Shown piece by piece: positions 46,300 through 47,729 of a DNA stretch of 47,729 nucleotides. The position numbers and the translations under genes were made by a program. Under the pieces are notes generated by a model. It was given only the letters and a program-made list of their open reading frames with translations. It ran no database searches and was not told the DNA's origin. Numbering within the stretch: position 1 is the first letter of the stretch; every line of letters starts with the position of its first letter. This stretch comes from a bacterium. Its GTDB lineage: Bacteria; Hydrothermota; Hydrothermia; UBA1063. The stretch lies in contig JASEFR010000002.1 of assembly GCA_030019025.1 (NCBI GenBank), positions 62,320-110,048 of the forward strand, read 5' to 3'.

Positions 46300-46705
46300 T
46301 TATATCAAACCTTTTTTCTTGGCATAGATTCCGTAATCTTTGTCTACAGTACCAATGTGATTGAAAAGCCAAGACCAAGTAACTGAAAGGGCTTCTCTGA
46401 AAGCATCTATATCACCTTCTTTAAGTGACCGCACATAATCATAAACCTGCCTTTTAAAGGCTTCGTGAATTTTTCTGTGTGACTCTAACTTAGGAAATCC
46501 TATACTTTCCATAAATTTCTCCTCAGCTTCAAAGTGGGGTATCAACGTATTCTTTTAACTCTTTAGAAAGAACCTCCATGGCGGTATTTACGTCACCCAG
46601 TTTTAAAAGTTCAGATATTCTGTTCAATAGCTCCACGAGCTTCTTATGCTGGTTATCCATCTCTGGAACATGGGTCAGGATTTCATCTGTGAATTCAATC
46701 TTCAT
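46300..46705 (-). pseudogene. Bacteriohemerythrin gene with a one-base frameshift
   Basis: Reading from the ATG at 46705 (AGGAGG SD upstream), frame 1 encodes a hemerythrin start (MKIEFTDEI..., then M-D-N-Q-H-K-K-L-V near 16-24) and reaches EYVDT before stopping at a TGA. Frame 2 (46300-46545) continues with PHFEAEEKFM, ESHRKIHEAF and F-N-H-I-G-T-V-D-K-D-Y. Removing one C from the CCCC run (46536-46539 on the plus strand: GGGG) gives a continuous 134-residue protein reading ...DTHFEAEE..., the normal hemerythrin length with a complete ligand set. Either a sequencing/assembly error or a recent inactivating slip. An intact protein would bind O2 at a diiron site, sensing or scavenging oxygen. 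Confidence 0.85.
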
Positions 46706-46815: not shown

Positions 46816-46844
46816 TTGTTTAAATTTACACACTCCCTTAAAAT
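46816..46844 (+). promoter_or_regulatory. Weak candidate promoter of the epimerase/reductase gene
   Basis: TTGTTT, 17 nt, TAAAAT, with a short leader that contains AAGGGAGG. The -35 is poor (3 of 6). Confidence 0.35.
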
Positions 46845-46865
46845 TTCTTTCAAGGGAGGCGTCTT

Positions 46866-47729
46866 ATTAGTAAGCTAATAGTTGTAACTGGTGCCTCTGG
46901 GCATCTTGGAGTAAATATCGTAAGGAATTTATTGGAAAAGGGATATAAAGTAAGGGCCATTGTTAAAACCGATAAAAGGGCTGTTTTAGGTCTCCCTTGC
47001 GAAGTCATAAAAGCCGATATTCTAAGCAAAGAAGAACTTCTAAATGCCTTTAAAAACGCCCATGCCATAATACATTCTGCAGCCCACATTAGCATAACGA
47101 GTTTTGAAAAAGACGCTATATGGAAAACAAACGTTCAAGGGACGAGAAATGTAATAGATGCAGCATTTTCAAGCAATGTTGAAAAACTGATATACATTGG
47201 TTCCATCCATGCCTTCCAAGATGACCACAATACTGTTGATGAAAATTCCCCTCTTGTTGATAAAAATGGCTCAATTTACGACATAACTAAAGCCGAAGGC
47301 GTAAAAGCAGTGCAAGAGGCAAGAAAGAGCGGTTTAAATGCAGTTATAATATGCCCCACAGCCCTTATTGGGCCTAACGATTACAAACCTTCTTTAATGG
47401 GAAGGTTTCTCATTTCCTTAGCCCAGCAACGAGTCCCGGCATTAGTTGATGGGGGTTTTGACTTTGTTGATTCGAGAGATGTAGCGGAGGCGGTTTCAAG
47501 GGCACTTACAAACGGAAATGGAACTTATATTATCTCAGGGCAATACCTGAAAGTCGCTGAGCTTTCTCAACTATGGTGCAAAACAGCAGGTGTAAAATGC
47601 CCGAGCATTATTCTTCCTTTAAAAATGGCCCAAACGGGAGCTCACATTGCTCTATTTTTTAGCAGAATCCTCAAATTTTCACCCTTATATACTCCTGAAG
47701 CACTTAAAGCCCTATCCTGGAAAAGTTCT
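46866..47729 (+). CDS. NAD(P)-dependent epimerase/reductase (extended SDR), 3' end missing, likely AUU start
   Basis: 288 codons open to the window edge. The Rossmann motif T-G-A-S-G-H-L-G lies at residues 8-15, with the S-I-H serine region, Y-x-x-x-K (YDITK), a CPTALIGPNDY segment and FVDSRDVAEAV, all typical of extended SDRs of the dihydroflavonol reductase/3-beta-HSD group. The substrate is unknown. Between the upstream stop (46839) and the Rossmann motif the frame contains no ATG, GTG or TTG. A strong AAGGGAGG ends 6 nt before an ATT at 46866, giving (M)SKLIVVTGASG, exactly where such proteins begin. So I propose AUU initiation, or an ATG-to-ATT sequence error. Confidence 0.8.
   Translation, partial: MSKLIVVTGASGHLGVNIVRNLLEKGYKVRAIVKTDKRAVLGLPCEVIKADILSKEELLNAFKNAHAIIHSAAHISITSFEKDAIWKTNVQGTRNVIDAAFSSNVEKLIYIGSIHAFQDDHNTVDENSPLVDKNGSIYDITKAEGVKAVQEARKSGLNAVIICPTALIGPNDYKPSLMGRFLISLAQQRVPALVDGGFDFVDSRDVAEAVSRALTNGNGTYIISGQYLKVAELSQLWCKTAGVKCPSIILPLKMAQTGAHIALFFSRILKFSPLYTPEALKALSWKSS

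Follow-up and report, generated by a model that had tools for sequence, protein, structure and literature searches.

Where does translation begin in a gene whose reading frame offers no ATG, GTG or TTG ahead of its first conserved motif? This question is raised by one end of the window, the whole stretch of 47,729 nucleotides analysed here. In a draft genome (G000, 1.73 Mb), the window reaches as far as contig C2 extends, and for this reason the gene concerned, which encodes an extended short-chain dehydrogenase/reductase (SDR), stops after 288 codons. The original prediction had given this epimerase/reductase gene an AUU start, with AAGGGAGG lying six nucleotides before the ATT and no canonical codon from the stop at 46839 to the Rossmann motif. 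The coordinates of the gap and the position of the Shine-Dalgarno (SD) sequence were confirmed, the count of in-frame ATG, GTG and TTG codons in this interval being zero. The ATT is followed by AGT AAG CTA ATA GTT GTA ACT GGT (S-K-L-I-V-V-T-G), and the N-terminus read from it is I-S-K-L-I-V-V-T-G-A-S-G-H-L-G. The locus therefore combines the features expected of AUU-initiated genes, namely the lack of a canonical start in frame and an AUU that lies at SD distance where the homologous N-terminus begins. The features of the start region are as follows.

46833–46858, forward strand: possible hairpin CTCCCTT / AAGGGAG over the SD sequence, in the window species only.
46839–46841, forward strand: TAA, the last in-frame stop before the SDR frame.
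46852–46859, forward strand: SD sequence AAGGGAGG; core GGAGG in 3/3 orthologues, anti-SD duplex of -11.8 kcal/mol.
46860–46865, forward strand: six-base spacer CGTCTT (CGTTTT in orthologue L004, CGTCTT in orthologue L005).
46866–46868, forward strand: predicted AUU start codon of the SDR gene; ATT in 3/3 orthologues, canonical in-frame start in 0/3.
46866–47729, forward strand: extended SDR gene, 288 codons present (322 codons at full length in L004 and L005).
46932–46934, forward strand: TTG, the earliest canonical in-frame codon; a false start, since a protein begun here would lack the Rossmann motif.

The last of these lies past the GxxGxxG motif, and the mechanical ORF list opens the SDR gene there, which fits the earlier expectation that gene callers would truncate it.

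The protein belongs to the NAD-dependent epimerase/dehydratase family (PF01370), with scores of 115.2 to 120.5 bits against a cut-off of 20.9. Its nearest NCBIfam models are the hopanoid-associated sugar epimerase HpnA (TIGR03466; 173.8 bits for the gene cut by the contig end, 205 and 200.4 bits for the orthologues, curated cut-off 367.65) and the sterol demethylase SdmB (NF052578; 154.5, 167.5 and 177.5 bits, curated cut-off 600). Since both sets of scores fall well below the cut-offs, the SDR is described here as HpnA/SdmB-like, with membership in either family unproven. The gene that follows SDR in L004 and L005 is like 3-oxo-5-alpha-steroid 4-dehydrogenase (PF02544; 178.5 bits, scored for L004), and the one after it we take, by eye, for a phosphomannomutase. 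On the other side, a bacteriohemerythrin-like gene adjoins the SDR gene in the window (46300–46705, reverse strand). A one-base frameshift near 46546 splits it, and the copy in G003, the genome of L004, is intact; either a short run of Cs was misread or the gene has recently become a pseudogene.

Among 41 genomes searched, two yielded SDR orthologues, both from other species of the same WOR-3 genus: L004 (G003, 72% identical) and L005 (G001, 67% identical). Both read GGAGGCGTYTT-ATT-AGY, and between the upstream stop and the motif neither contains a canonical in-frame start. The comparison of orthologous start codons that had been proposed for this gene thus supports the AUU start, the ATT being kept in 3/3 orthologues. 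At fourfold-degenerate sites the three pairs agree at 38/99, 26/99 and 49/100 positions, which is near saturation and almost random. A mere lack of divergence therefore does not account for the shared GGAGGCGTYTTATTAGY, and the start region appears to be held by selection. In G002, which completes the four species of the genus, the only homologue is divergent (36% identical), with an ATG start and a different neighbourhood. More distant homologues were found at 27 loci, and all 22 that could be evaluated by the motif have an ATG or GTG at most 15 codons before it. On the contig of the window, 88 orthologue pairs were compared. In 16 of these, six or more conserved codons precede the first canonical one in each of the two species; inspection by eye finds a usable canonical start in 15, the SDR gene being the sole exception. 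One point counted against the AUU reading is a further in-frame ATT at -15 in L005, but it lies 5' of the SD sequence.

The SD duplexes of the SDR gene were calculated at -11.8, -12.2 and -9.5 kcal/mol (window, L004 and L005), compared with a median of -8.6 for 87 genes. The value of L005 is average, 38/87 genes being equally strong or stronger, and this also counts against the main reading. The duplexes of infC are stronger than those of the SDR gene (-12.8 to -13.0 kcal/mol). The tail of the 16S rRNA, found in one of four genomes (G003), is GGATCACCTCCTTT; the initiator tRNA looks normal in all three genomes that gave a reading, and G001 also carries the exact stem-loop motif; and the IF3 of the genus aligns over both domains with solved IF3s and has no obvious lesion. 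Hence, nothing in the initiator tRNA, IF3 or 16S tail points to an altered machinery. A hairpin masking the SD sequence was considered as a conserved feature and rejected, both by the probability of an unpaired SD (0.05 in the window, 0.64 and 0.29 in the two orthologues) and by folding z-scores of -1.07, 0.54 and -0.26. An Rfam search of the three loci for known leader RNAs gave two sub-threshold matches only, both well outside the SDR leader.

Other non-canonical starts in the genus were sought in a census of 426 orthologue pairs (294 + 132), representing 370 distinct ORFs of G003 in several collinear stretches. An automatic filter flagged 67/294 and 24/132 pairs; a script then discarded those in which the first canonical codon of either species is an ATG with an SD sequence in each case, and the remainder were judged by eye. 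Rows left out included an apparent ORF that is a tRNA-Ser region, ATG/TTG starts without a clear SD sequence and conserved stretches resembling overlaps with the preceding gene. The sample is non-random, because the contigs of SDR and infC were chosen and contig C8 of G000 was chosen because a pattern match on the SpoIID-domain gene showed collinearity, while murJ and tatD were not known before the census. By eye, five genes lack a canonical start in both species: SDR, infC, murJ, tatD and a SpoIID-domain gene. They have no clear common function, which counts against the main reading. One-sided candidates numbered eight among the 426 pairs, with one credible by eye, and the resulting ratio of 5:1 indicates that such starts are mostly shared and long-lived. 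The one-sided case is a phosphoesterase-like gene (L132, G000:C8, about 13220), which seems to begin with CTG in G000 and has ATG in G001 and G003.

In all four species of the genus, infC starts with an ATT that follows AAGGAGG at a distance of eight bases. It therefore serves as an internal positive control, since it places an AUU start at the classical position in this genus. The murJ gene (PF03023, 326 bits) starts with ATT in G000 and G003, ATA in G001 and G002, and ATG in G005, G006 and G007. In the sister genus of the same family (L181, G004:C206), the aligned murJ start is an ACG preceded by GGAGGG, and no canonical codon lies close to it. The tatD gene (PF01026, 276 bits) starts with ATA in 4/4 species of the genus and with GTG in G004, G005 and G008. 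A TTG two codons downstream is a possible alternative in G002, although badly spaced. The SpoIID-domain gene (PF08486, 38.4 bits) has ATA in 4/4 species, aligned without gaps to the ATG/GTG position in G004 to G007, and in G000 and G003 an ATT also precedes the ATA. Outside the genus, relatives start these genes with ATG or GTG, the exception being the ACG of the sister-genus murJ. The start region of the SDR gene at window position 46866, GGAGGCGTCTTATTAGTAAG, and that of the SpoIID-domain gene of G001 (L120), GGAGGCATCTTATAAATAAG, are alike, possibly by coincidence.

From these comparisons the AUU start of the SDR gene is well supported, and we consider it likely, with good confidence, that it is a genuine weak start of the type IF3 discriminates against, kept by selection. 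Start codons that do not end in G are reported to be discriminated against by IF3 (PMC4611024), and control through such a start is described for infC, which regulates itself, and for sigR, which IF3 represses through its GTC (PMC5472188). In the proposed mechanism, the SDR gene would initiate at AUU 46866–46868 with the ordinary initiator tRNA, after the GGAGG SD sequence. Discrimination by IF3 against AUU would make this initiation weak and expression low; a high level of IF3 relative to 30S subunits would depress initiation further, and a low level would raise it. We infer that initiation takes place at these codons in the cell, with low expression and tuning by the level of IF3. The genus would maintain such starts in infC, SDR, murJ, tatD and the SpoIID-domain gene, and the occurrence of several AUU/AUA genes suggests a shared kind of translational control, as the earlier remark that AUU starts are often regulatory had hinted. 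A more tentative extension, which we think possible but would not favour, is an IF3-governed set of perhaps at least 12 AUU/AUA genes, among them infC, murJ, tatD, the SpoIID-domain gene and SDR, through which the ratio of IF3 to ribosomes would tune cell-wall and housekeeping functions while selection keeps the start weak even as the codon changes, as in murJ (ATT, ATA, ACG, never ATG in the family).

Several other explanations were weighed. The frameshifted hemerythrin gene next door and the position of the SDR gene at a contig end would suit a misread ATG or a dead gene. However, the same ATT occurs in three separately assembled species, which rules out a read error as its source, and the frame stays open for 288 to 322 codons with a conserved protein; this explanation is already refuted and retains a negligible probability. 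Scarcely more probable is an upstream start in another frame that enters the SDR frame by programmed frameshifting near TATTAG, where in 3/3 orthologues the ATT shares bases with a TAG of the -1 frame (ATTAG). Such an upstream start had been named as one of the observations that would speak against AUU, and L005 has no canonical codon in any frame that could lead into the SDR gene, both other frames being free of ATG, GTG and TTG 5' of the junction; in L004 and the window, only distant TTGs in other frames could do so. With the ATT shared by the orthologues and no leading frame in L005, read error, dead gene and upstream frameshift are all unlikely.

Relaxed start selection, by which the genus would simply tolerate AUU and AUA and the codons would have drifted in without regulation, is harder to dismiss, yet we judge it rather improbable. 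Several unrelated genes are affected, the phosphoesterase start differs between species (CTG versus ATG) and the murJ start has varied among ATT, ATA and ACG, all of which speaks for it. Against this, starts are mostly canonical, only one of the six genes seen with a non-canonical start has it on one side of the comparison while the other five share it, the codons of SDR, infC, tatD and SpoIID are stable despite fourfold sites near saturation, and the initiator tRNA and IF3 carry no obvious lesion. Somewhat more plausible, though still on the doubtful side, is a weak start that merely fixes a low and constant level of the enzyme with no role in sensing, as the weak start of pcnB is said to do. 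The conservation of the weak start together with its SD sequence and spacer agrees with this, as does the lack of a conserved leader structure; alone, it leaves the sharing of such starts by several genes, including infC, unexplained, yet it is compatible with that sharing.

The preferred reading, a selected weak AUU start, has precedents. In Escherichia coli and other bacteria, the IF3 gene infC has a conserved AUU start after a strong SD sequence. The SDR gene resembles it in its conserved AUU after an SD sequence, and the infC of the genus itself also has AUU; unlike infC, the SDR gene would have no self-feedback, because it does not make IF3. AUU starts outside infC are very rare. In a study that reconstructed 61,358 ancestral AUG starts, a single switch to AUU is reported (PMC5622118). 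The pcnB gene of E. coli is described as a chromosomal gene other than infC with an AUU start (PMC9410913); it shares with SDR an AUU outside infC, whereas gene and phylum are unrelated. In Staphylococcus aureus, cvfC1 (AUU) and ccpN (AUA) are reported to have conserved starts that follow strong SD sequences and lower expression (PMC13009471). These were demonstrated by experiment, whereas that of SDR is deduced by comparison. The AGGCGT of the SDR gene is a literal match to the computational AGGNGT motif of the same source, a motif defined for S. aureus. The conserved GTC of Streptomyces sigR is another non-canonical start, for which repression by IF3 was shown, whereas for SDR it is proposed (PMC5472188); sigR also differs in its codon and in its product, which is a sigma factor and not an enzyme. 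The SDR gene thus joins a class already known, that of conserved AUU starts outside infC, while their number in this genus is unusual. A literature search found no paper on WOR-3 start codons, and neither the density of non-canonical starts in the genus nor an ATG-free series of murJ codons was found described, which is weak evidence of absence.

One uncultured genus thus seems to have at least four AUU/AUA genes besides infC in 370 sampled ORFs. If initiation occurs at the predicted codons, such genes are cut short by gene callers, and the identity of the start codon becomes a comparative signal for selection on the level of translation. The murJ series (ATT, ATT, ATA, ATA, ACG) makes selection versus drift testable.

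Genome-wide, AAGGAGG-N5-9-ATT shows no clear excess over its reverse (65 versus 71 in G000, 77 versus 60 in G003), which weighs against the main reading, although counting alone is powerless. When 60 of the 142 places were scanned, 21 opened a frame of 50 codons or more, among which the credible starts by eye were the SpoIID-domain gene (in both species), SDR and infC. In a control genus (G005 against G006/G007), 83 pairs gave 22 flagged cases, and of the seven that were listed none was judged to share a non-canonical start; 0/83 is not significantly different from the 5/370 of the WOR-3 genus, the control sample being too small. A region of G005:C27 was rejected as a shared non-canonical start, since a shift of frame at nine consecutive Ts fits it better. 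It holds a lipoprotein gene of this control genus, which belongs to the same order (L218, G005:C27, about 244904; L222, G007:C2, about 98478) with an ATG-started signal peptide and an L-G-C lipobox in different frames. The frames meet at the T9 run, which is conserved in both species and is a candidate site of transcriptional or translational slippage.
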